This document shows positions 1 through 19,048 of a DNA stretch of 64,000 bases, in pieces. Position numbers and translations under genes: made by a program. Within the stretch, counting starts at the first letter, position 1; each line of letters opens with the position of its first letter. Below the pieces are notes generated by a model. The model searched no databases. It was given only the letters and a program-made list of their open reading frames with translations, and was not told where the DNA came from. Source of the stretch: Siphonodentalium dalli (Eukaryota > Mollusca > Scaphopoda > Gadilida > Siphonodentaliidae); contig CP136069.1 in the NCBI GenBank assembly GCA_032622095.1, positions 109,706,278-109,770,277 of the forward strand, in the 5' to 3' direction.

Positions 1-36
1 ATACATTCCAGTGTTTATCAATCAGACGCAGTCCAT
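1..36 (+). repeat. Left terminal inverted repeat, outer block
   Basis: These 36 bases are the exact reverse complement of 17276-17311. The match starts at the first base of the window, so the repeat may continue further left; the sequence right of 17311 would show its partner only if the left flank were known. Confidence 0.85.
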
Positions 37-124
37 ACTCATATAATTGTCTCCACAATACCTGAAATAATTTGACACCATTACTCTTACATAAATAATA
101 AAGAGCGTTTATTCTTTACTTCTC

Positions 125-643: not shown

Positions 644-900
644 ATGAATAACGTTACTCATACGAACGAAGAGTGTTTCACTTGTACAAAATTACTGATT
701 ACAACACGAATGCACTGAGCCTTGAAATTTATATTCCACATCTTCCTTAAATGTCCCAACAGATACAGCCATAGGCATAGTTTTATGCTCGTCCTAATTG
801 GTGATCCATAGACATCTATGCTGAATGATACTTTTCGACATTAATGTGAACTCAATATTTTATCTCACAATGTACAAACGTTTATGCTATCGCCTTCGGT
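644..900 (+). repeat. Left terminal inverted repeat, inner block
   Basis: 257 bases match the reverse complement of 17015-17271 with only a few differences. On the right the two blocks are separated by 4 bases; on the left they are separated by about 607 bases (37-643), so the left TIR is interrupted by extra DNA. Confidence 0.85.
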
Positions 901-913
901 GTCATTGTTATAA

Positions 914-1110: not shown

Positions 1111-1404
1111 ATGGCTGAAGAAATAATGACACCTCTAACAGTGGAGGAAATTTATGAAATAGAATGTATTCTACAATATATCGAAGAATACGACAGGGCT
1201 ATAGAAGCTTATCAGCTTGATGAAGATATTGTTGAAGCATCTACGCTTTGTTCAGGAGATGACCCATGGCGAACCAAATCGGATACGGAGAAGATGATGC
1301 ACCTAAAAATGATGTTACAAACTCACAACCCGATACAGCTGGACCATCAGGCTTACAAAACCGAGAAGACGAACATACACCTGATCAAGACGAAGGAGCC
1401 GTAA
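1111..1404 (+). CDS. Acidic N-terminal ORF: polymerase N-terminus in another frame, or a separate small protein
   Basis: A 97-codon frame begins with the first ATG after the TATA-like element and overlaps the polymerase frame that opens at 1266. Its first 50 residues are rich in E, D and I. The polymerase frame has a stop immediately before its own ATG at 1266 (TGA at 1260-1262), so translation may originally have started at 1111 and a single-base indel near 1260-1290 may have split the protein. The residues after about position 55 look like an out-of-frame read of the polymerase. I recognise no domain. A short independent ORF remains possible. Confidence 0.4.
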   Translation: MAEEIMTPLTVEEIYEIECILQYIEEYDRAIEAYQLDEDIVEASTLCSGDDPWRTKSDTEKMMHLKMMLQTHNPIQLDHQAYKTEKTNIHLIKTKEP

Positions 1405-2874
1405 AATCAGACAGTCAAACAGCCAGCAGTTCTGATAATCAAATAACCGGATATAGCATTCGCAAAAGAAGTGAACGGACCTTCGGAAACAATTTGGCAA
1501 CACAGAGAACATATGAAATCAAACTAGATGAAATTTACAAAGATAAAAAGTTAATCGACATATACAGGAATCTACATTCAATGTTCGAGGACACTATTCA
1601 AAGAGCTCGTGGAAATTTGGCTGACAATGATCTTGGTAGAGTTATCATTCACCATGAGAGTTTGGACAACCCTATAATAGTTCCGTTACAAACGTTGCAA
1701 ACGTTAAATGCTAACACGGTGATTGACAGAATCGAACTCGTTTTGAACAGTAACCAAACACTGACTGTTAATCAAAGTTTCAGCATAGATATAGGCACCA
1801 TTGAGTTACCTAAAGGTGGAGCACGGCGGAGGATAACGGCGTTACACTCTGAAAGTAATATTCTAAGAAATAAAACATCGATCGTTACGATTGAAAATAC
1901 CGACAATATGTGTATGGCTCGGGCTATCGCCATTTGTTGGTGTAAATTAAATATTTGCAGTCCTGATGAATGGCTAGAAATAACCCAGAATAGAGGAACC
2001 AGAAGTAATTTACAGCTCATCATGGACTACAGAAAAGTACCGATCAATTATTACAACAATATGACGTACAAAAAACGTACTGAGCAAGGAAAATTAGCCA
2101 AAGCAATTAGTGACATCGCCGGTGTACCAACAGACAGACCAGCCAGTTTAGCAGTCCTAAAAGCATTCGCGGACACTCTGAATTTGACAATACTAGTCGT
2201 TAGTGCTAGACTAGGTAATAAATTCATTACCAGCGCGCCTACAGACGTAGCAGAAAGACCCGTGATATATTTATATCTGACTGATAATGAACATTTCCAC
2301 GCTATTCAATCCATAACAGGATTCTTTAGTGCAGTATATTTCTGTGTGCATTGCTTAAAACATTATTCAACCAAAGGAAAGCATTATTGTGAACGCACCT
2401 GTTTCGTGTGTAAAAGTGATAAATGTGAACAAAGTGAAAACAAAGAACATTGTTCAGATTGTAACATGACGTGTATGTCTCATCAATGTTTCGTGCATCA
2501 TAAAGCAAAACCTATTAATCAAGCTTCGAAAGAAACGACAGCTCCTTGCGAGAAATGGTGGAAATGTTTGGACTACAAAAGTCATGGAGACACGGAAAAG
2601 ACGTCCGAATCAACACGTGTGCGGAGAAACATTTTGTAGATCGTGTGACAAATACACAATGGCAGGACACGAATGTTATGTAAGGGCCATACTTCCTGTT
2701 ACTGACAATGAAAGGGCTAAATTCTGTTTCTTTGACTTTGAAACCTTTCAACACGATATACTGGAATGTTCAGACGGATATTCACCTTTACATACAAAGG
2801 ATTGCCAGGACTGTAAAGAGGATCATATATGCAAGAAATGTGCTTGGTGTCAGGTGAGTCTTAACCTAATTGTA

Positions 2875-2900
2875 ATATATATATATATATATATATATAT
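2875..2900. repeat. (TA)n microsatellite
   Basis: Uninterrupted TA dinucleotides just inside the 5' end of the probable polymerase intron. Confidence 0.9.
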
Positions 2901-2932
2901 GTAACACATTACAGTCGAAATCACGATAACGT

Positions 2933-5037
2933 AACGCTCTTTATTATCGGCGCGCATAAGTAGAGACGCTCTTTTATTTTTAAAATTATATTAGACTAGA
3001 AGGTGACCCGACTTCGTCCGGGCTATTCAAAAACCAAATTTCAAGTCGATTGCTCCACCCGTTTCCTAGATCTGGTCTGCGCATGCGCGAAGCTGGTGTC
3101 GCACGTGCTCGGCGACCCGATAAAATTCGTTTCCGGGGCAAGATACATTCACATACCAAATTTCAAGTCGATAGCTACACCCGTTTCCGAGATATATAGC
3201 CCAATGTCATTTGCGGATACCTCGGCCGGTGATGAGTTAACGCGACACAGTCAAATGCATCGGCAGGGTGAGAGTTAACGTAATCTAACTTTATGACCTC
3301 TGACGACGTCATAGAAATTACGCATTGATTTTATCCCGATAAAAGCATTGTACCACTTGTACCTAATAATTGAGGCAGATAACTAAAACGGATACATACA
3401 TATTATATATCGTTGGAAAGATGAAGCCACACAGATTCTAACCGTGCAAATTATATGACTGGCAATTTATTATTCGCGCTATATCGAATCGATTTGTGAG
3501 CACCGAACTGAAATATATTAGCGCAAAAACGGCGTAAAAATAGATTTGACCTCCGCACGTGAAAAGTTGACCTCACACGGACAAATAAATATGCCTATGT
3601 TCGTCTCCGGCCGAAAATACCCTAAAATACCAAATTTCATCGAAATTGGCTTAGTCGTTTTCGAGTCCATCGATTTCAAACACACAAACAAACACATACA
3701 CACACAGATCTTTCAAAATATATAATAGATTATCGAGGAACGCTCTTTAGCTGTTACTTTATCTGCGTGTGAGATTACCATATAACAATTACATACTTGA
3801 ATTCGACCAAAGTTAAGGGTCTCAATATTAAAATTCAACTAAACTGAGTCACAGATGTTAAACCGAGTAATTAACTTTTTTTTAATTCTTGACACATTGA
3901 AAATGTGTAACATATTTTTTGTGAAAAGAGTTTTGTAATTGTTATATGGTAAACTAACATAATATATAATTTTTAACTTTATTGAACTTGATATCTGCGT
4001 GCTTGAATCGTCAACGATAGAGGCTATATGTCGATGGTCTGATCATCATACATTTTTAATATTGACACGTAGATTGGAACGAGTAATTTTTAGGGTCAAC
4101 ACACAAACAATATTAATACGTCAACGCTCTTTATTATCGGCGCGCATAAGTAGAGACGCTCTTTTATTTTTAAAATTATATTAGATTATCGAGGAACGCT
4201 CTTTAGCTGTTACTTTATCTGCGTGTGAGATTACCATATAACGATTACATACTTGAATTCGACCAAAGTTAAGGGTCTCAATATTAAAATTCAACTAAAC
4301 TGAGTCACAGATGTTAAACCGAGTAATTAACTTTTAATTCTTGACACATTGAATATGTGTAACATATTTTTTGTGAAAAGAGCTTTGTAATTGTTATATG
4401 GTAAACTAACATAATATATAATTTTTAACTTTATTGAACTTGATATCTGCGTGCTTGAATCGTCAACGATAGAGGCTATATGTCGATGGTCTGATCATCA
4501 TACATTTTTAATATTGACACGTAGATTGGAACGAGTAATTTTTAGGGTCAACACACAAACAATAGTAATACGTCAACGCTCTTTATTATCGGCGCGCATA
4601 AGTAGAGACGCTCTTTTATTTTTAAAATTATATTAGATTATCGAGGAACGCTCTTTAGCTGTTACTTTATCTGCGTGTGAGATTACCATATAACAATTAC
4701 ATACTTGAATTCGACCAAAGTTAAGGGTCTCAATATTAAAATTCAACTAAACTGAGTCACAGATGTTAAACCGAGTAATTAACTTTTAATTCTTGACACA
4801 TTGAAAATGTGTAACATATTTTTTGTGAAAAGAGCTTTGTAATTGTTATATGGTAAACTAACATAATATATAATTTTTAACTATATTGAACTTGGTATCA
4901 GCGTGCTTGAATCGTCAACGATACAGGCTATATGTCGATGGTCTGATCATCATACATTTTTAATATTGACACGTAGATTGGAACGAGTAATTTTTAGGGT
5001 CAACCCACAAACAATAGTAATACGTCAACGCTCTTTA
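2933..5037 (+). repeat. Three tandem repeats of about 452 bp with AACGCTCTTTA at their borders
   Basis: The border motif AACGCTCTTTA occurs at 2933, 4123, 4575 and 5027; the last two intervals are exactly 452 bp. The first unit is 1190 bp because a 734-bp retroposon sits in it and a T-run is 4 bases longer. Each unit carries a second AACGCTCTTTA (3739, 4195, 4647) and a pair of inverted segments, TTACCATATAACAATTAC and its reverse complement, about 160 bp apart (one base differs in the second unit). The units are otherwise nearly identical, so the amplification is recent. No coding frame is convincing. Confidence 0.92.
2996..3729 (+). mobile_element. RTE/SINE-like retroposon inserted in the first 452-bp repeat unit
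   Basis: Comparison with the uninterrupted unit at 4123-4574 shows 734 extra bases between TTAGA (2991-2995) and TTATCGAGG (3730). The insert has a head with repeated ACCAAATTTCAAGTCGATxGC segments (3037 and 3154 regions) and a tail with AAATTTCATCGAAATTGGC followed by ACACA-rich sequence, the type of ending seen in RTE-derived elements. There is no long ORF, so it is non-autonomous or truncated. TATATTAGA before and TATAATAGA at its end may be an imperfect target duplication. Confidence 0.7.
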
Positions 5038-8000
5038 TTAACGTTGAACCTATACCAAAACATTTTTTTTTTAAATAATTATCTGAACAAAGTGTAGACG
5101 TTTATTTTGTTTTTATTATCAATAAAGCTAGAGGTTAAAACGTTCAATTATTACTTTTCAGAACTGTTTAAAAACATGGTGCGGAAAAGTTCAGCATACA
5201 CCCATTTCCTCGTCGCCCAAACAGCTTGCTACGAATGCATGCATGAATCGCTGGAAACGAAACCGAACTGTAGAAATTGCGGTCCTTTATGTGATGCTTG
5301 TAACGACGGTGATGCGAAGAAGAAGAAGAAGAATGACCGAAATTTATGTCCGGATACATGCGGACTCCGTGAGGTTATATTTAGCGGTCATGATACCGGT
5401 GAAAAGTTTGGAAAATGGTTATTCTCTGAACAACATACGGGATTCATAGCACTGGCTCACAACTTCAAGGGTTACGATGGATATTTTCTCATGGAATATC
5501 TCATTGATCAATCATTGAGACCCAAAGTTATATATAATGGATCCAAATTGATGTACCTATACGTGGAAAAAGATCTTCATATCAAAGTACTGGACAGTCT
5601 CAGCTTTCTACCAATGAAGCTGGCACTGTTACCAAAAACATTCGGTCTTGATGGCGAGAAAAAAGGATGGTTCCCACACTTTTTCAATAAACCAGCCAAC
5701 CAGAATTATGAAGGACCCTATCCGGATGCCAAATATTACGGTGCTGATTATATGGGTGTGGCTGAACGAAAAGACTTCACGAAGTGGCACGCGGCTCAAA
5801 CAAATGCAGTTTTCATCTTCAAGAAAGAATTATCGGATTATTGTCGTAGTGATGTCAATATTTTGAGACAAGCTTGCATAAAATTCAGAACCCACATCAT
5901 GAACGCGACTGGAAATATACAACCCGTAATTGACGAGTTTTCTGGCGATATGAAGTTCAAACTGGTTGGTGCCGTTGATCCATTCCAATACGTTACCATC
6001 GCATCGGTATGTATGGGGATATTCAGAACGAAGTTCGTCGACGAGGAATGGAGAGTGCGCCTAAGTACCGAAGGGAAAACGTGGCTTCCAGCTAAATGTA
6101 AAGATGGAACTTTGTCGATTTTATACAAAGGTGAATGGGTTCAAGAAACAAAACTTGAAGATGAACGCGACGTACAAATTCGAGAGAAAGAATTTCTCAA
6201 ATCACAGATAGCTCGCGTCCCCAAGACATCATATAAAGATCAATACAGCAAAAGTTCGATTCAATGGCTGGAATGGATGATGTTCAAAGATAAAATCCAC
6301 ATAACTCACGCTTTGAACGGCCGTGAAAAGAAACTCGATGGTGCAAAGTACAGATTGGATGGATATTGTGAAGAGTTAAACACGACATTCAAATTTCACG
6401 GATGTCAATTCCATGGATGTGAACTTTGTCTGAGTCACGATAGAGACGTAGTCAAGAATCCGATAACCAACCAGACACCTAATGAATTATACGGACTGAC
6501 ACAGAAAAAGAAGAAGTATATAGAAAGTCGAGGCCTGAAATATGTGTGCATTTGGGAACACGAGTTCGTCGCTGCCCAAAAGACTAATCCGGAGCTTCGT
6601 GATTTCATTACTAGTTTGGACATTGTTGAACGACTAGAGCCTAGAGACAGTTTCTTCGGCGGCAGAACGAATGCAACTAAATTACACTACAAAGCTGACG
6701 TTGGTGAGAAAATACACTATTTTGACTTCACGTCGCTCTATCCAACTGTGCTCAAATACGCTCGATACCCGATTGGACACCCGAAAATCATTTTGGGCGA
6801 TGACATTACAGAACTTAATGATTACTTCGGAATAGCTCAAGTCAAGATTTTACCACCTAATAGACTCTATCACCCCGTATTACCGTATCGATCCAACGGT
6901 AAACTGAAGTTTCCACTGTGCAGGACTTGTGCTGATAATGAAAATCAACGACCTTGCACGTGTACGTGCCAACAGAGAGCTATGACTGGTGTTTGGTGTA
7001 TTCCTGACCTGGAGACAGCTATCAAAGTAGGATACAAGATTCTCAAAATATATGAAATATACCATTGGACCGAAACGTCAGACTATGGACAACAAAATGG
7101 ATTATTCACTGAATATATAAACACATTCTTAAAGTTCAAGCAGCAGGCTAGCGGTCCTCCGGATTGGATAAAATCTACCGAAGACATGGACAAATACATC
7201 ACAGAGTATAAAGACAACGAAGGTATATTGCTGGACAGAGAAAGCATCGAAAGAAATCCAGGATTACGCCAAATATCCAAGCTGATGCTGAATTCTTTTT
7301 GGGGAAAATGGGGTCAAAACCAGAATTTCAAACAGACCGAATATTTCCATGAATCGGAACAAGACAATCTATTCCAACTCATTTCAAATCCAATGAAACA
7401 AATGGAAAATTTTCATGTCATAACCGATGACATTCTTCAAATGGAGTGGACTTATAGAAATGACTGTGCGCCGTGTGGATCATCGAATAACATATATTTG
7501 GCCACGTTCACGACGTGTCACGCGCGATTAATGTTATATGAAGTTATTCATTCCTTGGGCAGAAGAGTGTTATATTACGACACGGATAGTTGTGTATTCA
7601 GCAGCACCGAGGATCAAATTAATCCCCCACTGGGTGACTATTTGGGACAGTTGACTAGTGAGCTAGACCCGGATGAATACATCGAGGAATTTGTTTCTGG
7701 AGGACCCAAGAATTACGCTTATAGAACCAATAAAGCTAAAGAGACGTGTAAAGTTCTGGTTTTATCTTTGAACTTCGAAAATTCAAAGTTCATCAATTTC
7801 AACACGATTAAAGATCTGTTAGAATCCAGAAGTACAGTGCCCATCACCACAACCAATCCTCGAAAAATATGCAGGTCCAAAGGAAAAAGATAATTATATA
7901 ACAGATCTGAGGAGAAGCAGTACCGAGTTGTGTATACAAAACGCAGACGCCTGGATAACCTGGATACTCTGCCATATGGATATTGAACGAGGTACGTAAT

Positions 8001-8076
8001 ATATATTATATAATTTAATCGTCTATATTTGATCAAGGTTGTAATGAGAGTGTAAACATTCGATCGATGGCAGCTA

Positions 8077-8158
8077 TCGGATTATACTAAGGCGTGTTCA
8101 GACACGTTCGATGTTAGATAACATCGAGCGTGCCTGAACACGTATTACTATAATCCGA
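8077..8158. repeat. 82-bp near-perfect hairpin
   Basis: Two 40-base arms with about five mismatches surround a 2-base loop (GA). The arms begin TCGGATTATA and end TATAATCCGA, and contain CGTGTTCAG / CTGAACACG and TCGATGTTA / TAACATCGA. It lies about 90 bp after the polymerase end and 45 bp before a TATA-like element. It could be a tiny palindromic MITE, a regulatory cruciform or a binding site; the flanking GATGGCAG (8066 and 8156) may be a duplication. Function unknown. Confidence 0.85.
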
Positions 8159-8202
8159 TGGCAGTCATTGGTCAATTTATCCACGGTGTCCATTTTTTCG
8201 AT

Positions 8203-8210
8203 CTATAAAA
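8203..8210 (+). promoter_or_regulatory. TATA-like promoter for the PC4-like/TBP-like transcription unit
   Basis: CTATAAAA followed by about 70 bases that end at a splice-donor-like ACAG/GTTAGT (8277-8286). No ATG of a known gene follows before 9309, so the transcript would have an untranslated first exon. Inferred from sequence only. Confidence 0.45.
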
Positions 8211-8395
8211 TGCTACCCAATCCAGTTCACATTTACAAATTCGTTAGTCCTATACTGTGTGTGTGAAACATTCTATACAGGTTAGTTATGAATTAGTTGT
8301 TTTGTCTATCATTGCATTTACCTCCAGTACAGTCTTAACGCTCTTTATACTTATAATATTATATCGGTCTTAAACCAAAAACAAATATGTTTTTT

Positions 8396-8956
8396 TTATT
8401 TTCTCAACGAAGAGTCACCATAATTCCAGATTATTCTGAATGACCAGATTAATTCATTCTCTAATTCTGAAATATATTTCGATTTACTTGTAGAAATGTA
8501 ATCCAAAATCACGCATCTGTTAAGTATTTGTTCAATCGTGAACAGTGTACACGGTTCACGGAGAATGATATATCCGTGAATTATTGTCACTTCTTCAAAA
8601 CTTCTCTGATTGAAAACCCAGTCTCGGTATTCTGCAAATCTCACAAAGTTATCTCCAATAAGTTCACGAATGTCATGTATTTTGTTTTTAGGAACGCCTC
8701 TAAATACCCAGCGATTCGAAAACATTTGATTCAATATATCCTGTAAGAAATCAGTTTCAAATTCAGACCTCGCAATCAAAGATTTCAATCGCTGTACAGG
8801 AAAATATCCTTCATCTATATTCTTCAGTATTATTTTAATTTCTCTTATAAACCAATTGTGTAGTAGTTGTTTTTTTATTTCTGGATTTATAGTTGACATG
8901 TCAATTAGCTGATTGTATATTTTCTCCAGTGTTTCTGCGGGTAGTATTTTCTCCAT
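8396..8956 (-). CDS. Orphan protein, 186 aa, antisense within a probable intron
   Basis: The start is set at the ATG at 8956 (MEKILPAETLEKIYNQL); the open frame extends further upstream, but only through the low-complexity minisatellite, which gives a P/G/R-rich translation and is not believable as protein. The N-terminus (LPAETLEKIYNQL) weakly resembles the first helix of an F-box, but no full domain can be shown. The rest is helix-prone, with aromatic and charged residues and no signal peptide or membrane span. An AATAAA on the minus strand (8395-8400) overlaps the stop codon, so a compact poly(A) end is plausible. I do not recognise the family; it may be a cargo gene of the transposon. Confidence 0.5.
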   Translation of the reverse strand: MEKILPAETLEKIYNQLIDMSTINPEIKKQLLHNWFIREIKIILKNIDEGYFPVQRLKSLIARSEFETDFLQDILNQMFSNRWVFRGVPKNKIHDIRELIGDNFVRFAEYRDWVFNQRSFEEVTIIHGYIILREPCTLFTIEQILNRCVILDYISTSKSKYISELENELIWSFRIIWNYGDSSLRK

Positions 8957-9011
8957 AATGAACTGACTCAATGAATCAATTTTCTTATTCTTATTGAGTA
9001 TGCGAGGGAGG

Positions 9012-9233
9012 GGGCGGACCCCCAGTGCGGGGCGGGCGGACCCCCCAGTGCGGAACCCCAGGGCGGGGCGGGCGGACCCCCCAGTGCGGACCCACAGGGC
9101 GGGCGGGCGGTCCCCCCAGTGCGGACCCCCAGGGCGGGCGGGCGGTCCCCCCAGTGCGGACCCCAGGGCGGGCGGGCGGACCCACAGTGCGGACCCCCAG
9201 GGCGGGCGGGCGGACCCCAGGGCGGGCGGACTC
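9012..9233. repeat. GC-rich minisatellite, unit about 33 bp
   Basis: About seven units built on GCGGGCGGGCGG, CCCCCCAGTGCGGA and CCCCAGG, with small length changes. The region is far more GC-rich than everything around it. All ORFs across it on both strands are low-complexity. Confidence 0.9.
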
Positions 9234-9308
9234 CTTTCGGACTTTGTACTCTCGATGTGTAACTGATAAGTAATGTTTGTTTTCTTATTTTCCAGGTTCA
9301 AATAAAAA

Positions 9309-9920
9309 ATGACTGATCAACCCGATGTTGAAGGAAACCAACGGACTGAAACCAACGAGAGAGCATTCCATCCACAATGCTTAGTCCCGTTAGGAAATGA
9401 CATTTTCCTATTTGACGGTCGATTCCTGGGAAACTTGTATATCCACATAAGAGAGTGCGGTGAAGTTTATGCAGGCCAAAAATTTCCGACAAAATCTGGA
9501 ATAACATTAAATCTAAGGAGATTCAAAGAGTTGAAATCTTACCTATCAGATATACATCAAGAAGTGGTCAGTTATCGTACCGGGGAATCCGATGTATTCA
9601 TGAGACGTCATATCGGTGGGAATTTCTTCATTACTATAAAGAGCGGCATCCCGCGTGTTGACATTCGCAGGTATTGGCTGCCTGAACATTCAGATGATTT
9701 GTGTGCAACCAAATACGGAATATCTCTGACATTCGACCAATTTGAAGAACTAGCTGGAGCTATATTCGTCCTGTGTGCTAATATTCCTGAAATTGATCAG
9801 ACTGTGCAGTGTTATTTGACCGACGATCACCAAAACCAGGAAGGATCTTTAAGATGTATGGAATGCTGCCCCAACGGTGATAGAACATGTTTGATTAACC
9901 GGATGCAGACATTGATCTAA
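9309..9920 (+). CDS. Tandem PC4-like (p15 coactivator) ssDNA-binding protein
   Basis: A 203-aa protein with two copies of the PC4/Sub1 fold signature. Copy 1 spans about residues 31-86: a beta region with YIHIRE followed by FPTKSGITLNLRRFKELKSY. Copy 2 spans about 103-160: VDIRRYW followed by KYGISLTFDQFEEL. In PC4 these are the strand that ends in DIREYW and the KKGISL-x-x-x-QWxxLK strand-helix. PC4 proteins bind single-stranded or melted promoter DNA as dimers and help general transcription; a fused tandem could form the dimer in one chain. A short Cys-rich tail (residues 183-194) is unexplained. The ATG is at the first in-frame position after the splice acceptor. The TBP-like gene starts 11 bases later, so the two are probably co-transcribed. 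Confidence 0.75.
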   Translation: MTDQPDVEGNQRTETNERAFHPQCLVPLGNDIFLFDGRFLGNLYIHIRECGEVYAGQKFPTKSGITLNLRRFKELKSYLSDIHQEVVSYRTGESDVFMRRHIGGNFFITIKSGIPRVDIRRYWLPEHSDDLCATKYGISLTFDQFEELAGAIFVLCANIPEIDQTVQCYLTDDHQNQEGSLRCMECCPNGDRTCLINRMQTLI

Positions 9921-9931
9921 ACATTACTCCT

Positions 9932-10456
9932 ATGATGCTACGAAAAACTAATGTCGTATGTTCTGCAGATTTGAACTGTTCTATTAATCTAAGGGATTTG
10001 ACACTCGGCTGTTCGAACATTGAATACAATTCCAAAAAGTTTAGCGGAGTTGTATGGAAACATTCTAAATTCGGTGGATGTTGCCTCGTGTTTAACACGG
10101 GTAAAATTTGTGTTAACGGGCGTTCTGATAATGTCAAACAGACACGCGTTCGACTGCGTCGATACGCTCGACATATTCAAAAATGTGGTTGGCGAGTGAG
10201 ATTACATTGCATAAAAATTTTGACAATGTCTGCATTTTGTCAGTTAAATGGAAAACTTGACTTAAACGTTTTAGTGAAACTTATGGAATGTTCTTACGAA
10301 TCAGAGCTGTTCCCTGCGGCAATGTTCAGACGTGAGAAAATACATTTTACATGCTTTCATAATGGAAAAATTGTGATTACAGGCATTAAAAGTGAAAAGC
10401 AGATGTTAAATATTGTATATCCTACTATATGTGAACTTGAATTACTTTCAGAATAA
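9932..10456 (+). CDS. TATA-binding-protein-like factor
   Basis: A 174-aa protein covering both halves of the TBP saddle and almost nothing else. Half 1 (residues 5-88) contains EYNSKKFSGV, LVFNTGKICVNG and ARHIQKCGW; half 2 (92-172) contains SYESELFPAAMFR and NGKIVITG. The four phenylalanines that in cellular TBP intercalate at the TATA box are all present (F37, F54, F127, F142). The protein is clearly diverged from cellular TBP (for example VWKHSKFGG in place of the basic loop), so it is not a recent host copy. The first ATG codons are at 9932 and 9935; the frame opens only at 9899. AATAAA at 10452-10457 overlaps the stop codon. Predicted role: promoter recognition for element genes in the host nucleus. 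Confidence 0.85.
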   Translation: MMLRKTNVVCSADLNCSINLRDLTLGCSNIEYNSKKFSGVVWKHSKFGGCCLVFNTGKICVNGRSDNVKQTRVRLRRYARHIQKCGWRVRLHCIKILTMSAFCQLNGKLDLNVLVKLMECSYESELFPAAMFRREKIHFTCFHNGKIVITGIKSEKQMLNIVYPTICELELLSE

Positions 10457-10759
10457 ATATATATATGTATCGATTATCTTTTTTCATTCGGGAAGGGCTC
10501 ACATACCTTTGTTTTTTGGCTTTTGACAACAAAAAAAAACAATAGATTTTTTTTGTTTTGGCAACAGACCTAATACCCCTCACCCGCCTCCCTCCACAGC
10601 CCCCTCAACCCAGTCATATATATATATATATATATATATATTTTCCCAGTCATACATATGATAATATAAGAACGATAAATGATTACATTTACAATATTTT
10701 ATTTATATACATAATATAATTTAAAGAGTGTTTCTCTCGTTGTCGCTAATGAAGAGCGT
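10457..10759. other. Convergent intergenic region with poly(A) signals and a (TA)n run
   Basis: This separates the plus-strand TBP-like gene from the minus-strand protease. It has A- and T-runs, a C-rich stretch (10570-10610), a (TA)n run at about 10616-10641 flanked by CCCAGTCAT on both sides, and TTTATT at 10698-10703, which is AATAAA for minus-strand transcripts. No gene is seen. Confidence 0.7.
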
Positions 10760-11206
10760 TTACAGAATATATTTCAACATAAAATCCTTATTAATTAAAT
10801 CATTATACATATAATTATTGGCACTGAAACGCCTCATTATATTTTCTAGACTGTATCCACACAGTTTATAGAATGCAAAGTTTATGCAATAGGGACCGCA
10901 TATATTAGAACCCTGTAATCTGTAATCATTACACTCGTAACGAGGTCCATTCAATAACAACACGTGTTTAAATCGTCCGTTGTAACACTCGGGTTTTAAC
11001 CCCATAGGGTCGAAGAACTCTGATAGTTTATGTTCATGGAATATCATCAATGTCCAGTGGCGTCCAGGTTGGCTACTCTCGTCAGTGTTAACTATATACA
11101 TCCGGGGATATTGGATATAAAGAGGTAATTTGTCTATGGGACAAACATCTATCTCATTATGGTTTGTGAAACTATTTATCGCCCTCATGAGTCCGCGTGT
11201 ATTCAT
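10760..11206 (-). CDS. pro: Adenain-like maturation cysteine protease
   Basis: A 148-aa protein of the adenovirus-type (C5-like) protease family used by Polintons to process virion proteins. Catalytic residues are visible: His50 in GRHWTL, Asp66 in EFFDPMG, Gln98 in YRLQG and Cys103 in SNICGPYC, in the family order His-Asp/Glu-Gln-Cys. The frame is complete, though short for the family. Its ATG shares one base with the stop of the major capsid gene (TAATG at 11204-11208), placing it last in the minus-strand gene run. The stop codon lies in TAAACGCTCTT, a copy of a motif that recurs in the element. Confidence 0.9.
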   Translation of the reverse strand: MNTRGLMRAINSFTNHNEIDVCPIDKLPLYIQYPRMYIVNTDESSQPGRHWTLMIFHEHKLSEFFDPMGLKPECYNGRFKHVLLLNGPRYECNDYRLQGSNICGPYCINFAFYKLCGYSLENIMRRFSANNYMYNDLINKDFMLKYIL

Positions 11207-12287
11207 TATTCAATGCAAACTTTACGACTCTCGTCAACTTTGAGAGCGGCAGGAAATTTGGCATAAACAATTACCGTACAATTGTCTTTCAAAGCCGATG
11301 AGAATTTAATCTCAAGGCGTGTGTGACCTTTCTGAGGTATAACTCTATCGTGATTACGAAGTTGCATCCAAAAGTCGCAAAGTTGAACGGGTTCTTATCG
11401 CGTGAACCGCTTTCAGCCTTTGATGATACTAAGCCAATAATACATCTACTAGGTACGTCTCCTTGAAATAGATTATCTTCTCCCAAACTGAATGCACCTT
11501 TTGACACTGTATACGTCTTTATGATAGATTTTGAAAAAGGATAACACGCATTCCTTTTCTTGAGTGACTCAGTATGACTGAGTAATACACCAGGGTTAAC
11601 TTTCACAGTCGCTAGTCTCAAATTAGCTTCCTGTATTTTCAACTTGTATGTCTCAGTGGTTCCCGTATACATCAGTCTAAAAACATCTCTCGTCTGCCAG
11701 AATTTTGACGTGAGCGGGAGACCATTTAGTAGTAATTTGTCCTGTTGGAAGAAGTCAAGCTGAATTGATCCCATAATATCCATTATTTGACTAGTACGGG
11801 TTGTTTTGGACCTGTAATACAGGCCAGAGTTCCCGCTTTTCGAATCTGCCAGGTCCATACCACCTGCCGTGTCCTTTTCGAACGCTTGTCCATGTAGCTG
11901 TTCCTTACGTTCAGTTTCCAAGAGTACATCGAAATATGCTTTGTATGGATAATTCGGACCGACTTGACTCACGGGAACTTGCTGTATATTCAAATCGATC
12001 TGCGAAAATATTGAATGTAGGGGTGCATTTATCAGACCCACATCGTCATTAACGGTTAGAGCCGAACCATCTTGCTTGGTTATTTTGAGTTTGAGAAGTA
12101 GCAATGTGCGTTTGAGGTCCATGTAGGTTGTGGCCATGGCGGGAATATTGAACTCTAAAGCTGCAGTGTCTGTCAGCTGATTCACGGGTCTGTAATTTAT
12201 CCATTCTGTCGATTGTATTCCACTGTCAACCGCCGGCGATTCAAATAATGCCAATTTATCGGTATGGTACTCTCTGTATTCATTCAT
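11206..12287 (-). pseudogene. mcp: Double jelly-roll major capsid protein, broken near its C-terminus
   Basis: The main frame (12287 to 11289, 332 codons) is the Polinton capsid protein that forms pseudo-hexameric capsomers: an N-terminal block with STEWINYRPV and LEFNIPA, a central block with HSIFSQIDLNI and NYPYKAYFDVLL, and RDKNPFNFATFG near the end. After about 11350 the family-typical C-terminal strand (KFSSALKDNCTVIVYAKF) is found in another frame, ending at TAA 11206-11208. The expected segment of roughly 70-80 residues between these parts is absent, so there is a deletion of around 200 bases plus a frame change near 11335-11350. The ATG overlaps the upstream gene's stop (ATGA). Confidence 0.88.
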
Positions 12288-12597
12288 GATTTATCGAATA
12301 TAGTTTTCACTTTCTTAGGATTATTAGCCAAACCGCTAGCGAACACTCTCTTATTGTTTTTTTTGGACGCCTTACGTGTGTGTGTCAACTTATTTTCTGC
12401 AACTTCGGCTTTGGCCATTTCAATCGCTTGCGCGACGGGCGTCACTACGTTAATATGTGGTCTTCTTCACCATCAGTATTTTGAGTTCTGTCAATAAAGT
12501 AGCGACCCTCATTATCTGGCGTTAACTTCCCATTAATCATGTCCCTGAAATGTTTTCTCCACTTTTCAATATCGGTTGGAATATACGTGATCGACAT
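12284..12597 (-). pseudogene. Small conserved-type Polinton protein upstream of the capsid gene, frameshifted
   Basis: The frame from the ATG at 12597 reads MSITYIPTDIEKWRKHF and ends at a stop at 12445. The following sequence continues coding in another frame, with NVVTPVAQAIEMAKAEVAE and a Lys/Arg-rich tail, to TGA 12284-12286, which overlaps the capsid ATG. The switch lies in a GAAGAAGA run near 12455-12470, a likely indel site. Total would be about 105 residues. Its place directly before the capsid gene and its basic C-terminus fit a small virion protein, but I cannot name its function. It is too short and broken to be seen as one ORF. Confidence 0.6.
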
Positions 12598-13003
12598 GTT
12601 TCTTCAAATGTAGTGTACAAGTCACTCTTTTTTCTGCATTTATTTTAGAAAGTTTATCGCCTCTTATAAAAATCCTGAGACGCTGAAGTTTATCCTGCCT
12701 TACGTTTATGTAGAATGAGTCCTCAAAACTCCGCCAATCACCCGTATCACGTGTGTCTCTCTTTATAACCCTGAGGATGGGGGATGATGTGTCACAAGCT
12801 ATTGATTCTCCACATATGTCCGAGCAAATATATAATAAATCCGTGTCTATATGATCAGTTATATTTATGTCTTTCAAACAACATAACCACGTTCCTTCCA
12901 ATATTAATAAACCAGGTAACTCTATTGTGAAGTCGAGAGGACGATTATCTGGATATTTATCTATGGAATCGTCGCTAGTCAGGTACAGATAATAATTATC
13001 CAT
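12566..13003 (-). CDS. Candidate minor capsid (penton-type, single jelly-roll) protein
   Basis: A 145-aa frame that begins with alternating beta-like segments: YYLYLTSDDS, YPDNRPLDFTIELP, LEGTWLCCLKDINI, FYINVRQDKLQRLRIFI and VTCTLHLKK. This resembles the small beta-rich proteins of Polintons that have been proposed as penton or minor capsid proteins. There is no signal peptide, membrane span or cysteine pattern. It starts 4 bases after the preceding gene's stop, and its end overlaps the start of the next gene by 32 bases. Family assignment is from pattern and position, not from a catalytic motif. Confidence 0.55.
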   Translation of the reverse strand: MDNYYLYLTSDDSIDKYPDNRPLDFTIELPGLLILEGTWLCCLKDINITDHIDTDLLYICSDICGESIACDTSSPILRVIKRDTRDTGDWRSFEDSFYINVRQDKLQRLRIFIRGDKLSKINAEKRVTCTLHLKKHVDHVYSNRY

Positions 13004-13007
13004 ATGA

Positions 13008-13505
13008 CTAGTTTCTAATTTTTTTCAAAAGAGAATCAATATTCATCTCTTCTCTTATAGTTTTATCAACATCACTGAATATATACTTGAAGTCAGACCA
13101 CTGATTATACGGAATACTTATAATCGTCGGAGTGTTATTCACAACTCGCATAATGTCTGTATAAATGTGCCCTTGATTATTACATAATGTAACAGTAATG
13201 TTTGATCGTATTGTCCACTTTTTCACGAACCCACAGGGGTGTTGTTCGTAATCATGGGGGTGTGACTCATTCGTATGACGTAATTCATAGTCCACCGGCT
13301 CACGCGGTATCTTCTTTGGAACTAAAATACCTGGTAGTGACAGAGTTATTGCCATAATAGTAAATCCTATCCATTTAAGGAGCTTCATATGTAGACGACC
13401 GCGTTCTGTTTGAAACATATTCATCAAGGTACCTGTTATATTATCCATGATTGTAATGGTTCCCGTGGATAGCTTACTCTTATTAATTTTGATATCTGGC
13501 GACAT
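13008..13505 (-). CDS. Membrane-anchored protein with PC4-like C-terminal domain
   Basis: A 165-aa protein. Residues about 42-62 (KWIGFTIMAITLSLPGILVP) form one hydrophobic segment, probably a membrane anchor. Residues about 96-155 match the PC4 pattern: ITVTLCNNQGHIYTDIMRV, then a short turn, then ISIPYNQWSDFKYIFSDVD. This is a third PC4-like domain in the element. The N-terminus overlaps the distal end of the integrase gene by 23 bases, and the minor capsid candidate follows 4 bases downstream. Location in the morphogenesis run suggests a virion or membrane role rather than the nuclear role of soluble PC4. The PC4 match is weaker than that of the 9309 gene. Confidence 0.55.
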   Translation of the reverse strand: MSPDIKINKSKLSTGTITIMDNITGTLMNMFQTERGRLHMKLLKWIGFTIMAITLSLPGILVPKKIPREPVDYELRHTNESHPHDYEQHPCGFVKKWTIRSNITVTLCNNQGHIYTDIMRVVNNTPTIISIPYNQWSDFKYIFSDVDKTIREEMNIDSLLKKIRN

Positions 13506-14591
13506 CGGACTCTAAAATCCATGAATTAAATTTGTCAGGCCATGAATGCCAGTGCACCATGACTTCAGTTTGACCCTTTCGTTTCCTTTTTTTGACAATT
13601 TTATCTATTCTGTAAACTGTTTCGTCATCAACGCGCACCCTTTGAAGTTCTGACTAGTAGAAAGCGCCCTCAATGGCTTCATCCAAGAAATCTGTCAATG
13701 TATACAAGGGTATGTTCTGCCTGTAAAACTTCTTAGTCACTTTGAACAACTCTCCAGTCCATTTCTGAGAATATTCTCGGTCAAAAACTGAATGGTGTGT
13801 GATATTCTAACGATATCATTTACATTGTATTTGAACTTTTTCTTCAATTTACTTTTAACACCTCCCTTCTGTCTTATTAACCACTGATCAAGGCGAGACT
13901 CATCTTCATTCTCAACAGTTATTGAGTCAGGGGTGGTACCCAAAGAACGATGTATTGTATGGTTATAACTTTTCACAATATCTTGTAGAATGTCGATATA
14001 TCTAGCATTATTATGCTTTATCATATAACGTGAAATCTTCTGCTTTATAGTTTTTATGACCCGTTCCGAATAATTGGCTTTCATTTCGTTTTGCGTAAAA
14101 ATTTGAAATATATGAAGATCCTTAAGGTAACTTTTGACCCGTTTGTTTGTGAATTCCGAACCGTGGTCCGTTCGGAGGAGGCGAGGTGTTCTTCCACCTT
14201 CAAATATATGTTTCATAGCATTGATCACATTAATTGCAGTTTTTCTCTTTATAGCTTCGCACCATAGCTTCCTAGAAAAAATGTCAATCATTATTAACAC
14301 GTACGTGTAATTGTCGTTGTCTTTGGAAACATCATTCATATCCATGAGGTCTCCATCCCATTGACTGTCAGAAGCGTTTACAATAACACGAGACCTCGGG
14401 AATTTTCGTCTAACACTTTTTGTTAGGGAATAACTTTCATGATTTTGTAGCCACGCCACAATCTCGCGCTTGGAAATGATGTGCTTATTTTCAGATTTTA
14501 CAGTCTGATGCAACTTTGTAGCTCCTGAGTACGATGCGGGGTGACCCGGATTAAAATAAATTGAACTCAGATAATCTTTCCAATCGGCCAT
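13483..14591 (-). pseudogene. int: Retroviral-type integrase with C-terminal chromodomain (broken)
   Basis: Integrates Polinton DNA into the host chromosome. The start is set at the ATG at 14591 (MADWKDYLSSIYFNPGHPAS), 5 bases after the preceding stop. The rve core shows D81 in QWDGDLMDM, D142 in RTDHGSEF and E176 in NYSERVIK, a D,D,E triad. The frame fails near 13790-13800; the coding sequence continues in another frame with SH3-like strands, meets TAG at 13654-13656 and then carries a clear chromodomain (YRIDKIVKKRKRKG, VHWHSWPDKFNSWILESDV) to TAA at 13483-13485. So there is one frameshift and one stop. The N-terminal HHCC finger of retroviral integrases is not evident, as is usual here. 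Confidence 0.9.
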
Positions 14592-14596
14592 ATTGT

Positions 14597-14977
14597 TCAC
14601 AGCGATATCCAACGTTTCTTCTTTATCTTAGTCAGTCTACCGGCGATTATACCCGGAGGTCTAGATATTTCACGCTTAATCTCTCTTATTTTCTTTTTTC
14701 TTTGCTTAGTGTGTGTCTTTTTCGATGTATTATTAGATGTGTTAACTCCTGATTTTTCGATTGCCTCCTGAGGTTCAGTCGCTTGAACTGTATTAACAAT
14801 CTGATTATTCATCGGGTCCCTTTCTTTATTAATTTCGTCAGAATGGCTACTATTGTTTGCCGAGATGTCGCTGTGTTCAATATCAGGCTCCGATGAAACT
14901 TTTTTGTGTTCACTTTTTTCTGTGTACATCATATATCTTTCATACGGGATCAAAACAGTTTTCTTCACAGACTCCAT
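14597..14977 (-). CDS. Polinton-type small protein with basic C-terminus
   Basis: A 126-aa frame starting at the ATG at 14977. The N-terminus, SVKKTVLIPYERYMMY, has the form K-x-V-L-I/V-P-x-E-x-Y that I associate with a small protein found beside Polinton integrase and capsid genes. The middle is polar (S, N, E) and the end is strongly basic (KQRKKKIREIKREISRPPG and GRLTKIKKKRW), which suggests binding to DNA or to capsid. TGATG couples it to the upstream gene by one base. The function is not established. Confidence 0.6.
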   Translation of the reverse strand: MESVKKTVLIPYERYMMYTEKSEHKKVSSEPDIEHSDISANNSSHSDEINKERDPMNNQIVNTVQATEPQEAIEKSGVNTSNNTSKKTHTKQRKKKIREIKREISRPPGIIAGRLTKIKKKRWISL

Positions 14978-15300
14978 CACAAAAACTGTTTCAATTTAGG
15001 TTCAACGATGATAAACATCAAAGCAATGGCGGGTGAGTGAATATTCACACTTTTTCTTTTCCTCAACAAGCTCACAGATTTATCACCCAAGAATATATAA
15101 AATGATTTATATTGCCGTAATTTAGCTTTTTGTTGAACTGTAACTGTTAAAATTTCATGTAATAAATTGACCGTAATTTCGACTAGAACTTTCAACTGAT
15201 TATTAGTTATCGATGTCAATAATGCGTTTCGTTGAGATCTTGATTGGGTTGATGTCAATATTCTGACAAAATTCAACTCCTTACGTAATAATCGACTCAT
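14977..15300 (-). CDS. Polinton-type small helical protein
   Basis: A 107-aa frame from the ATG at 15300 (MSRLLRKELNFVRIL). The pattern SQRNALLTSITNNQLKVLVEI, then LLHEILTV, KAKLRQYKSFYIFLG and a Lys-rich turn before a hydrophobic end (PAIALMFIIVEPKLKQFL) resembles a small Polinton virion-associated protein whose C-terminus is a hydrophobic, possibly membrane-active, tail. Here that tail lacks the Gly/Leu-rich form I expect. The frame is intact and overlaps the next gene by one base. Role inferred from position and pattern only. Confidence 0.6.
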   Translation of the reverse strand: MSRLLRKELNFVRILTSTQSRSQRNALLTSITNNQLKVLVEITVNLLHEILTVTVQQKAKLRQYKSFYIFLGDKSVSLLRKRKSVNIHSPAIALMFIIVEPKLKQFL

Positions 15301-15359
15301 TTTATCGTCGCGACTCAGCTCCAATACTGCCCCTTCTTATTACGTAGTAGGTACGTAAA

Positions 15360-16004
15360 TTATAGGTCTTGGTTGGGAAATACGTCTGTTCGTAGTCTGT
15401 ATTTATCCTCAGTGTGAGGGGACATATCTATTATAAGATACGCAAATGGTTTCTTCATACAATCCTTGTATGCATCAATGAGTACTTTAGATTTACCGGG
15501 ATACAATTGTCTACCCAATGTGGAAATTTGTGATCCATCCCTCAAATTTTTGAATAAAATTAGATATCCTGTGTTTAAGGCTATAGTTCTCGCAGCCTTG
15601 CCTTGTGCGTATAAATGTTGTGAAATAAATAGCACCGAAAGACAGCGATGATGAGTTTGCTGCGTAAATAGTAATTCAATCTCTTTTTGGTCAATAATAC
15701 GATGCATCAAGTCGTCTAATATTAACATATTATGTTTACCATCAGCAATTTCTTCGATTTCTGTTTGGGTAGGTAATCCTTGATGCATGACCAAATTTTC
15801 GATTGATGATTCAATTTCATCATAGAAATTTTGATAAATACCGTAACAGTACATTATTTTCTTAGGTGGATCTCTAGAATACATTCCACTAAGATTTTGT
15901 AGGAATCTGTAGACCCATCTCGTCTTACCAGAACCAGTTGGTCCATTGATGCAAATACTAGAACAAGGTTCAAATGGTATGGCGCTATGGTTAGTTGACC
16001 CCAT
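15360..16004 (-). CDS. FtsK/HerA-type genome packaging ATPase
   Basis: A 214-aa P-loop ATPase that would pump the element's DNA into its capsid. Walker A is GPTGSGKT at residues 21-28; Walker B is MLILDD at about 93-98; a sensor-like FISQH lies at 126-130. Compact length and motif spacing agree with the Polinton/A32-like ATPases. The frame is intact. It is first in the minus-strand morphogenesis run, with a TATA-like element 41-48 bases before its ATG and 59 bases between its stop and the next gene's ATG. Confidence 0.92.
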   Translation of the reverse strand: MGSTNHSAIPFEPCSSICINGPTGSGKTRWVYRFLQNLSGMYSRDPPKKIMYCYGIYQNFYDEIESSIENLVMHQGLPTQTEIEEIADGKHNMLILDDLMHRIIDQKEIELLFTQQTHHRCLSVLFISQHLYAQGKAARTIALNTGYLILFKNLRDGSQISTLGRQLYPGKSKVLIDAYKDCMKKPFAYLIIDMSPHTEDKYRLRTDVFPNQDL

Positions 16005-16044
16005 TTTTGTTCACTGTGTCCTATTTATTAGTAGCTATACAGTT

Positions 16045-16052
16045 CTTATATA
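16045..16052 (-). promoter_or_regulatory. TATA-like promoter of the minus-strand morphogenesis gene run
   Basis: TATATAAG on the minus strand, about 45 bases before the ATPase ATG at 16004, leaving a very short leader. No comparable element is seen between the packed downstream genes, so it may serve the whole run. Inferred from sequence. Confidence 0.5.
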
Positions 16053-16425
16053 CATCATACGTACACATTTGTTATGGAAGGCGTGTGTAGAGCAGCTTTA
16101 TATGGGTCGAAAGCGTGGTCTGATAAGGTTGATGGAAGAGAACGTGTAGGTTGAAGAGGCTATGGCCGGAACGAATATCTTCGGTGAAGATACAGAGGAC
16201 CCTTCTAATGTTCAGAGACAGGTGGTTGGTGGATGTTGTGGTGGGCGGGCGGGTATTATCACGTTGGTCTGTGATTGAGTGAAAAAAATCTCTTGTCAAA
16301 GATAGAACCACGATAGAACCCAGGGAGATATTATTTTGAAAATTATATCATACATATATTTATTATTGATAACATAAACAAAAACAATATAACATTATAC
16401 AATTCAATCAACAGCGTTACTAAAT
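16053..16425. other. Region without a convincing gene
   Basis: This lies between the ATPase promoter and the acidic-protein gene. Short ORFs on both strands lack recognisable features. The minus strand has AATAAA (plus-strand TTTATT at 16359-16364), which could end the acidic-protein transcript. A GGCGGGCGGG stretch lies near 16242. Confidence 0.5.
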
Positions 16426-16851
16426 CTACCAGTCACAGTCAGACATTTCTTCTGATGAATATGCACTATCCATGAGATATCCATATTCGGCATCCAACTC
16501 CAGTTCACGTTCCCAATCTTCGGGACGTTCGCAATAACAGTCTGTGCTTGACTCGGAATCAGACCACGACGAATGGGAACTGGTGGTCCAATAGTCCGCC
16601 TCCACGTCCCGATAAGAACTGTCTGAGGATATTGACCACTGGTCAGAGTCTCTGTCATCAGGGCCATTGTCTTCATCTTGATTGATATCCAAAATGGGTA
16701 CAGCCTCACCAGTATTGTTCTCATGTATATCCAATACGGGTACAGCCTCACCATTATTGTTCTCATGTTCAGACTCGTGTTGATCACTTAGACATGGACA
16801 CACAGAGGTTAGGCCTAAACATAAATATTTGAATATAGTTTCCAGCAGCAT
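16426..16851 (-). CDS. Acidic serine-rich protein with internal repeat
   Basis: A 141-aa protein. The start is set at the ATG at 16851 because a TATA-like element lies 42-49 bases upstream; an in-frame upstream ATG at 16947 would lie before that element. The N-terminus is hydrophobic with three cysteines (LGLTSVCPCL), then two 14-residue repeats (HENNNGEAVPVLDI and HENNTGEAVPILDI, 42-bp DNA repeat), then an S/D/E-rich tail with Tyr and Trp (SDQWSISSDSS, DWERELELDAEYG). No known domain. It may be a regulatory or activation-type acidic protein, or a lipid-anchored one through the cysteines. It lies next to the right TIR. Confidence 0.55.
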   Translation of the reverse strand: MLLETIFKYLCLGLTSVCPCLSDQHESEHENNNGEAVPVLDIHENNTGEAVPILDINQDEDNGPDDRDSDQWSISSDSSYRDVEADYWTTSSHSSWSDSESSTDCYCERPEDWERELELDAEYGYLMDSAYSSEEMSDCDW

Positions 16852-16892
16852 TTTTGTAGGTTGTCGATAGTATGACTTATATGTTATGAAAA

Positions 16893-16900
16893 TATATATA
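16893..16900 (-). promoter_or_regulatory. TATA-like promoter of the acidic-protein gene
   Basis: TATATATA on the minus strand, preceded by AAAAAA and TCGCG, 42-49 bases before the chosen ATG at 16851. Inferred from sequence and spacing. Confidence 0.45.
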
Positions 16901-16950
16901 TTTTTTCGCGAATAAATACCTAAAATCAAATGTGAACAGCTGCACATTTA

Positions 16951-16981
16951 CAATTAGTATAAAACTATTTCTAAACATCGA
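16951..16981 (+). repeat. Direct repeat bracketing the right TIR, inner copy
   Basis: ATTAGTATAAAACTATTTCT plus CTAAACATCGA-like sequence recurs at 17374-17404 with two or three differences. The two copies bracket the right TIR. Confidence 0.6.
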
Positions 16982-17014
16982 ACTTGTCTGAACACTCATA
17001 GCTATCAAATGATA

Positions 17015-17311
17015 ACCGAAGGCGATAGCATAAACGTTTGTACATTGTGAGATAAAATATTGAGTTCACATTAATGTCGAAAAGTATCATTCAGCATAGA
17101 TGTCTATGGATCACCAATTAGGACGAGCATAAAACTATGCCTATGGCTGTATCTGTTGGGACATTTAAGGAAGATGTGGATTATAAATTTCAAGGCTCAG
17201 TGCATTCGTGTTGTAATCAGTAATTTTGTACAAGTGAAACACTCTTCGTTCGTATGAGTAACTTTATTCATGGATATGGACTGCGTCTGATTGATAAACA
17301 CTGGAATGTAT
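17015..17311 (-). repeat. Right terminal inverted repeat
   Basis: Contiguous copy of the two left blocks: 17276-17311 pairs with 1-36 and 17015-17271 pairs with 644-900. A length near 300 bp is ordinary for Polinton TIRs. It begins about 120 bases beyond the TATA-like element of the acidic-protein gene. Confidence 0.88.
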
Positions 17312-17373
17312 GCATTCATACCGATGGTGACAATGTCCAAAATTACAGTGACTCGGACCAGTCCATACACATA

Positions 17374-17404
17374 TAATTGGTATAAAGCTATTTCTAAACA
17401 TCGA
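17374..17404 (+). repeat. Direct repeat bracketing the right TIR, outer copy
   Basis: Partner of 16951-16981. Just before it, AGTCCATACACATATAATTG resembles 30-49 at the left end (AGTCCATACTCATATAATTG), in the same orientation. Element-like sequence therefore continues past the end of the TIR match. Confidence 0.6.
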
Positions 17405-17700
17405 TTAATAAAATTAACAGAGTTTCATGAAAAATATTTAAAATTTGTTTGAACAAAAATAACAAAAGATATTACACGCAAATATTTAAAAATACATTCG
17501 ACATTTAATAGTCGGCCGAGATTTGGGTAAGAGACCGAAAACTCATTATAAAGTTTTGAGATTTGTTTAAAATGTTTAAAATTTTGGATTTTTTTTTTGG
17601 TTTTGAAAAAAAATATTTTGGGAATATTTTAGTACAAACAATTTTACCCCCATAAAATCAATTTTTAGATGTGAGGGTAACGAGACCCCCGTACTACTAA
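17405..17700. other. AT-rich junction between Polinton and satellite
   Basis: No gene is seen. The sequence is rich in ATTTAAAA-type words and T-runs (17585-17600) and does not match the satellite monomer. It may be original flanking DNA or a remnant of the element's end. Confidence 0.6.
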
Positions 17701-19048
17701 TGTGTTCTGGAGTCGGGGAGCGAGTACACCGTGGAATGCTAAAGGTGAAGGTAACCGAAGAATGACCTTCACCTGATACGTTATTAAAGGATGACATCGC
17801 GTTTATTTGATTTGTACATAATATCTAAATAATTTAAACTGGTGAATGAATGGGGGAACGGATTTTTGTGAGCGGGAAATGTATTTAACTAGCTGTTGTA
17901 GATCTGGGTTTTTCCAGATCAAATTTGGCTGTGAGATAGCCCTGTCGTACACTTGGGGATTTATTTTAAAAAGCAAACACATGACCTATGATTTTTCTTG
18001 CATTTTCGTGATCAACTGGTGTCAATCTAGCTGGGTAAACATCACTGGTATGGCCTGCAGGCTTCAATTCAGCGAATTTGGCCGAAACGTTAACACTGTC
18101 GCCTATGTGAAACCATTTAGTTCCGTGATTCCTATAAGAAAAATTTGAATTTTACGAAATTTCACGTCTCGCCATGATAAGTTGTTATTTCCATATTTTC
18201 TTATTTTCAAATGATAATGACCACATTTTGGACAGATTTAAAGAAGAAACGCATGGATTCGCCTGTAGATAGTAAAGAAAGTGATAAATCTGGTAATTTT
18301 GCATGGATGTCAGGTACCATTAGGGGGTCAGGGGGTCTAAAGCCCCCCTCCCCACAATTTTGAGGAGTGTTAGCCCCCCCCCCCCCACCCATTGGGAAAA
18401 TGTGTCATTTGACCCAATTAAGCTTTTCCGGCACCCAGTAGCCTTATCTTGGACCGTAGCTCCACCCCAAGCCGGGGGGGGGGGTGATGGCGTCACCACT
18501 AGAGTTACTGTCGTGCAAAACTGTCATGGCAGCTTTGTTAAACAGACCGTATGCCCTGCCATCTGGTAAAATTTCATTCCTGAGGCTTTGTCTGATGTTG
18601 TATCATAATGTTTCGATATTTAAATTGACTTATGGTTGCTTTACATTGCTATTAAAATATTTTTTTTTTTTATTTTCTGTTAATTTTGGTAAATATTTAT
18701 TATAAATTGCCAAATTCTGCATGAAAAGGGTTTAAAATTGGACAATATATCCCTCTCAAAATGTATATTAACATTTCCTCTTCAATTTAGTAATATTATG
18801 GTATATAAGGACATACTTCAGTTATACAAGATGCATTAGCTAGTAAAATTGAAAAAAAAGCTAAATTTTTTGGCTTTATTTTGAGGATTGACACTAATTT
18901 TCAGGATGCCTCATATTGGAAAAATAAACCACTACTGCTCGATATAATCCATTTTTGATTTCAGTAAGGTCTATATTTTGATAAAATACTATAAGAAACG
19001 CTGTTATTCACACATATACATATATATAATAGGAATCAGGGAGCTAAA

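Follow-up and report, generated by a model that had tools for sequence, protein, structure and literature searches.

Polintons characteristically have terminal inverted repeats and a 6-bp duplication of the target site, and these elements are usually thought to depend on host transcription factors. Mavericks were present in all mollusc genomes analysed in one study (PMC10294476, excerpt). No report of a TATA-binding protein (TBP) or of the coactivator PC4 in a Polinton was found among the papers listed by full-text searches (Polinton, Maverick, adintovirus). Apart from words unrelated to TBP, terms for the two proteins are absent from the main text of PMC11071308, PMC11071296, PMC8097293, PMC10120064, PMC11244446, PMC7805220 and PMC4028283, and in the main text of PMC12220804 "TATA" occurs only as an author name.

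TBP genes have been described in other viruses and elements. They are present in 59% of mirusvirus genomes (PMC10132985, excerpt) and occur sporadically in elements of alga genomes that are without polymerase, packaging ATPase and double jelly-roll capsid genes (PMC10675990, excerpt). In the phage collection, only two records matched the TBP studied here, both of Haloarcula virus HJTV-2; this haloarchaeal tailed virus (L108, MZ334513.1) has an annotated TBP with an adjoining winged-helix gene. Mirusviruses, which we compare by description only, and HJTV-2 share with our element a TBP encoded by the virus, but they are unrelated and larger viruses.

Diverged TBPs are also found among the proteins of animals. 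The TBP paralogue TLF (TBPL1, TRF2) does not bind TATA, binds TFIIA and TFIIB and can reduce TATA-driven transcription, and insect TRF1 acts mainly with Brf1 (PMC3142196, excerpt). The element TBP resembles TLF as a diverged TBP of animals with a TFIIB contact; TLF differs in being without TATA binding, and we set it apart by its description. Concerning PC4, TAF-independent transcription from a TATA-less promoter needs this protein in vitro in fission yeast (PMC8871863, excerpt), and activity in both transcription and DNA replication has been reported (PMC9409219, excerpt). Bivalves have expansions of PC4 genes, with up to 18 in Mytilus galloprovincialis (PMC9223095, excerpt).

An element of Polinton type and its genes

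The stretch of Siphonodentalium dalli DNA analysed here, called the window, is 64,000 nucleotides long. Within it lies the greater part of an element of 18,073 bp (about 18.07 kb), the left end of which lies 375 bases before the window start and the right end at 17698. Its features are the following.

1..37, no strand: part of the left terminal inverted repeat, which begins 375 bases ahead of the window
644..900, no strand: inner stretch of the left terminal inverted repeat
5107..7893, forward: family B DNA polymerase frame, 928 aa open (PF03175, E 5.5e-52)
8396..9301, reverse: frame with no assigned function adjoining PC4, no Pfam match; its C-terminal part is also in copy L002
9309..9920, forward: homologue of the PC4 coactivator, 203 aa, with a tandem pair of PC4 domains (PF02229, E 2.9e-13)
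9932..10456, forward: TBP homologue, 174 aa, two repeats in one uninterrupted frame (PF00352, E 3.3e-30)
10760..11206, reverse: adenovirus-type protease-like frame, 148 aa, weak match (Peptidase_C5, 14.7 bits, below the cut-off of 21.3)
11289..12287, reverse: frame of 332 aa, putative capsid protein by position only, no Pfam match
13737..14612, reverse: integrase frame (PF00665 rve, E 7.7e-14)
15360..16004, reverse: P-loop ATPase-like frame, 214 aa; several weak P-loop families, all below cut-off (Pox_A32, E 0.017)
17015..17698, no strand: right terminal inverted repeat, closing the element at 17698
17699..17704, no strand: target site duplication AATGTG, 6 bp, also found immediately outside the left end

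Judged by its sequence, this is an integrated element of Polinton type, with a family B polymerase, an rve integrase, terminal repeats and a 6-bp duplication. It shares these features and the length of 18 kb with Polintons/Mavericks, adintoviruses included, and differs from them in adding genes for TBP and PC4. The two terminal inverted repeats align in two blocks, one of 424 columns with 18 mismatches and 12 gaps, the other of 257 columns with 2 mismatches, and positions 38-643 are without counterpart in the right repeat. The frame at 15360..16004 is a candidate packaging ATPase, and the 332-aa frame had no PDB sequence match and no locus in the viral-contig search.

The element and its surroundings contain further repeats. 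A 452-base tandem repeat (3711-5040; 2.9 copies, 97% alike) lies ahead of the polymerase frame, and a GC-rich minisatellite with a 35-base unit (9014-9218; 5.9 copies) lies just upstream of PC4, at a place where copy L002 has a different GC-rich stretch. Outside both ends of the element there is a direct repeat (-1299..-1023, in L104, and 18123-18400), 99.3% identical over 278 columns. The remaining 46 kb or so of the window (17700-64000) lack ORFs of at least 120 aa, and their GC skew is positive at every 2-kb step from 18001.

The TBP homologue and its relatives

An earlier note on this DNA had proposed a Polinton carrying, as a gene of its own, a TBP homologue with both repeats and all four intercalating phenylalanines, without an extra N-terminal domain and well diverged from cellular TBP. 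The profile match, the predicted fold and the many related copies described below agree with this proposal. The note also called the polymerase, integrase and capsid genes broken; the polymerase frame, for its part, stays open over 928 aa. The frame is open throughout, from an ATG at 9932 to a stop ending at 10456. Its product matches PF00352 in two stretches (104.2 bits against a Pfam cut-off of 22.9, E 3.3e-30), and since the domain begins at residue 6, there is no N-terminal extension. All ten NCBIfam TBP models (PRK00394 series) also matched, each under its own curated cut-off (at best 86.3 against 181 bits). In a PDB sequence search, 35 of the 37 chains listed belonged to TBPs or to fusions with TBP, at E values down to 2.8e-23, and the remaining two had E values of 0.63 and 1.3.

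The AlphaFold2 model, made from the window protein and 25 relatives, has the saddle fold with a pLDDT of 94.6. When it was compared with the PDB by Foldseek, 44 of the 45 matches at E <= 0.001 were chains of TBP or complexes that contain it, with TM scores up to 0.90 to solved TBPs at 24-31% sequence identity. Residues F37, F54, F127 and F142 fall on the four columns where every one of the 16 cellular rows has Phe. The frame thus encodes a complete two-repeat TBP with a confidently modelled saddle fold. It shares with eukaryotic TBP the repeats, the fold, the four Phe and the TFIIB stirrup, and differs from it by its low identity, by an Asn-to-Thr change, by altered TFIIA contacts and by forming a separate clade with its relatives.

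The changes at the contact positions emerge from a comparison of 24 aligned family members with 20 cellular and archaeal rows. We take the relevant columns to be two minor-groove Asn, the TFIIB contacts E, E and L, and the TFIIA contacts A, N, E and R. All 24 family rows have retained the first minor-groove Asn, and all 24 have Thr in place of the second; both positions are Asn in 20 of 20 cellular and archaeal rows. The four intercalating positions are Phe in 20, 23, 23 and 21 of the 24 family rows, and the TFIIB contacts are kept in 24, 22 and 23. The TFIIA contacts are kept in 3, 19, 1 and 14 rows, the window protein itself having T, N, E and S. From these residues, DNA bending and TFIIB recruitment appear to be preserved, unlike base reading and TFIIA contact, which seem altered. 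As a DNA-contact residue is altered in every family row, the protein may have a target other than a plain TATA box; the altered residues could mean either a lost or a different function.

The 25 relatives from the protein database are 37-58% identical to the window TBP, and 23 of them are 169-199 residues long. By kinship, they would be viral. One of them, P0018, lies on a contig of 9,776 bases in a record that carries the name of a MAG of the bacterium Sedimenticola sp.; the contig is probably DNA of a eukaryote or a virus that ended up in the bacterial bin. No locus was confirmed in the viral-contig search (queries TBP, alignments A2 and A3, P0020, the 332-aa frame, PC4 and the family B polymerase) or in the genome-contig search (queries alignment A3 and P0018).

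The tree comprised 44 rows, 24 of element type, 16 cellular and 4 from archaea or archaeal viruses; P0022 and P0025, partial or odd, had been excluded beforehand, and TLF and the TBPs of protists and mirusviruses were outside this set. All rows of element type fall into a single clade (100/98) that lies outside the cellular ones (98/95) and outside a grouping of animals and Encephalitozoon. HJTV-2 groups with archaea, unlike the element TBP. When five long-branch rows were removed, the element-type clade had 100/99 and the support of the cellular clade fell to 90/76. In this reduced tree, placing the element-type rows with animals was not rejected (AU p 0.209), which leaves a derivation of the element TBP from animal TBP compatible with the sequences.

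The PC4 neighbour and the copies in the host genome

The frame before TBP, which the earlier note had missed, stops 11 bases ahead of the TBP start codon, the two genes being in different frames. Its whole 203-aa product matches PF02229 in two stretches (49.5 bits, E 2.9e-13, Pfam cut-off 25). We regard it as a tandem double PC4 because each half matches PC4 by itself, at 27.7 and 24.5 bits against the same cut-off, the second half lying just under it. The element protein thus shares the PF02229 domain with PC4/Sub1, present twice, and differs in having two domains in one chain and in resembling solved PC4 no more than weakly in sequence (best E 0.0067 in the PDB). PC4 usually works as a dimer, so one chain with two domains could stand in for it. 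A single-sequence structure model (pLDDT 31) was uninformative on the fold, and none of 159 candidate PC4 relatives in the protein database scored at E 0.001 or better.

Copies were searched for in the 2.23 Gb of the host genome (9 contigs). There are at least 150 copies of TBP, 94-100% identical (150 of 455 candidates scored); 149 of these span residues 1-174 and one spans 2-174. A stop is present in only 4 of them, and 146 are without a stop, in a list that holds the best-scoring copies and hence leans to intact ones. At 37 loci, the window's own included, the frame is full and open for TBP in 35, for PC4 in 24 and for the protease in 30, a comparison that favours TBP since the loci were selected by it. 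The gene is thus present in many related Polinton copies of the same genome, and the listed copies together with the selection signal rule out a chance host insertion of TBP.

Selection was assessed in 97 copies (7, 30 and 60, the last two sets from the list of 150), 37 of which also covered the protease. PC4 sequence lies beside TBP in all 97, at full length in 90. For TBP, the ratio of non-synonymous to synonymous variants per site is 0.62 among singletons, 0.27 among variants in 2-4 copies and 0.23 among those in at least 5. The same classes give 0.79, 0.30 and 0.15 for PC4, and 0.66, 0.23 and 0.15 for the protease in its 37 copies. Picking copies by protein similarity may depress non-synonymous counts in all classes, so the contrast between classes outweighs the values themselves. 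Shared variants are presumably mostly older than the insertions and singletons mostly younger. Variants common to several TBP copies look purified by selection, and on this test TBP and PC4 both appear about as constrained as the protease. The reading of the sequences that stands is a Polinton family in many copies, bearing a TBP-PC4 pair under selection.

The unit at about 7.8-10.5 kb of the window, containing PC4 and TBP, is itself repeated at some places. It occurs three times head to tail in L109 (G000:C2:85769001-85779000), twice head to tail in L110 (C2:195208501-195217500) and as an inverted pair in L111 (C9:9107501-9115500). These repeats may reflect either amplification of a cassette or an assembly fault.

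Possible roles of the TBP-PC4 pair

The element's TBP and PC4 may be its own promoter-recognition kit. We lean, if slightly, towards a promoter factor, encoded by the element and altered in its specificity, which would bring host RNA polymerase II to the element's genes. Once expressed, the element TBP would bind and bend the element's core promoters with a preference differing from that of host TBP, and would recruit host TFIIB and RNA polymerase II. Its partner would be PC4, one chain replacing the usual dimer, rather than host TFIIA and TAFs. As an outcome, transcription of the element would be less dependent on host TFIID. The two proteins make a sensible pair, because in the fission yeast system a TATA-less promoter needs PC4 for its TAF-independent transcription (PMC8871863, excerpt), and the adjoining position of the genes favours a role in transcription. 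The profile matches of these neighbours, the presence of PC4 in all 97 copies, the fall of the non-synonymous ratio and the kept TFIIB and Phe positions also favour the promoter-factor reading. Against it are the promoter sequences, the altered contact residues with their possible loss or change of function, and the protein-database search, in which no PC4 relative scored and no TBP-PC4 pair was seen outside this genome.

The earlier note had singled out TATA elements at 1029, 8203, 16045 and 16893. TATA-like strings do occur at or beside these positions (at 16045 on the reverse strand), but their frequency is no higher than chance. TATAWA is present in 3 of 11 upstream regions, a count reached in 124 of 500 shuffles, and no motif common to the element genes was found upstream of them (for both, 11 of 13 gene starts). 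The density of TATAWAW is 5.6 per kb in positions 1-17311, AT microsatellites counted, versus 4.2 per kb beyond 18000. A plain TATA reading finds no support in these results, which agree with an altered specificity and also with an absence of function at those sites. A bolder version of the promoter-factor reading, which we put forward tentatively and think somewhat improbable, is an orthogonal core-promoter system in a branch of animal Polintons. It would have an element-specific, non-TATA, TFIIA-free TBP with a double PC4, and would be switched separately from host TFIID. If this were true, the 25 relatives would represent this gene in further viruses of the kind.

Other roles can be proposed for the same genes. 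The TBP homologue could be a decoy that captures TFIIB or other factors and shuts off host transcription rather than starting that of the element. The kept TFIIB surface, with the DNA-contact Asn and the TFIIA-contact positions altered, would suit such a role, and TLF provides a precedent in lowering TATA-driven transcription while binding TFIIA and TFIIB without TATA binding (PMC3142196, excerpt). We nevertheless find this unlikely: the intercalating positions, Phe in 20-23 of 24 rows, would be needless for a pure decoy, and the gene is paired with one for a coactivator. A role in replication or architecture is less likely again. There, PC4 would be the single-stranded-DNA-binding protein of protein-primed replication and TBP would mark or bend the terminal repeats; the family B polymerase, the repeats themselves and the reported part of PC4 in replication as well as transcription (PMC9409219, excerpt) would fit, but the kept TFIIB-contact positions point to transcription initiation.

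The surface kept in the element TBP might also serve Brf1, which would recruit RNA polymerase III or another polymerase, and insect TRF1 works mainly in this way (PMC3142196, excerpt). The element genes are long protein-coding frames and PC4 is known as a coactivator of RNA polymerase II, both of which make this route very improbable. Even less credible is domestication, in which the host would use the element gene: the open frames of 146 of the 150 listed copies would agree with it, but the copies are many and dispersed inside elements, their shared variants are constrained like those of the element protease (0.15), and the host has a multi-exon TBP of its own. The core of this host protein is 95% identical to that of the snail Bradybaena similaris, its best named match among 120 listed, other named species having at most 93%. 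By this comparison the host is an animal, probably a lophotrochozoan and perhaps a mollusc, TBP being too conserved for a finer placement. A functionless chance capture of host TBP by one element, for which an animal origin (AU p 0.21) would speak, is refuted by the copy number (at least 150 listed) and the selection data, and deserves next to no credence given also the separate clade of 24 rows and an element gene in one frame, 24-31% identical to solved TBPs, against a host core 95% identical to that of a snail.

With a TBP and a PC4 that it encodes itself, both maintained under selection and dispersed through an animal genome, the element would be an unusually small virus-like system having a general promoter-recognition factor of its own. 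Its TBP would be a natural variant with altered DNA and TFIIA contacts, in which a change of TBP specificity is directly testable. Expansions of PC4 and TBP genes annotated in invertebrate genomes are worth checking for a viral origin, as in the bivalve PC4 genes (PMC9223095, excerpt). Our guess is that some of the latter are Polinton genes, as they may be if the orthogonal system exists.
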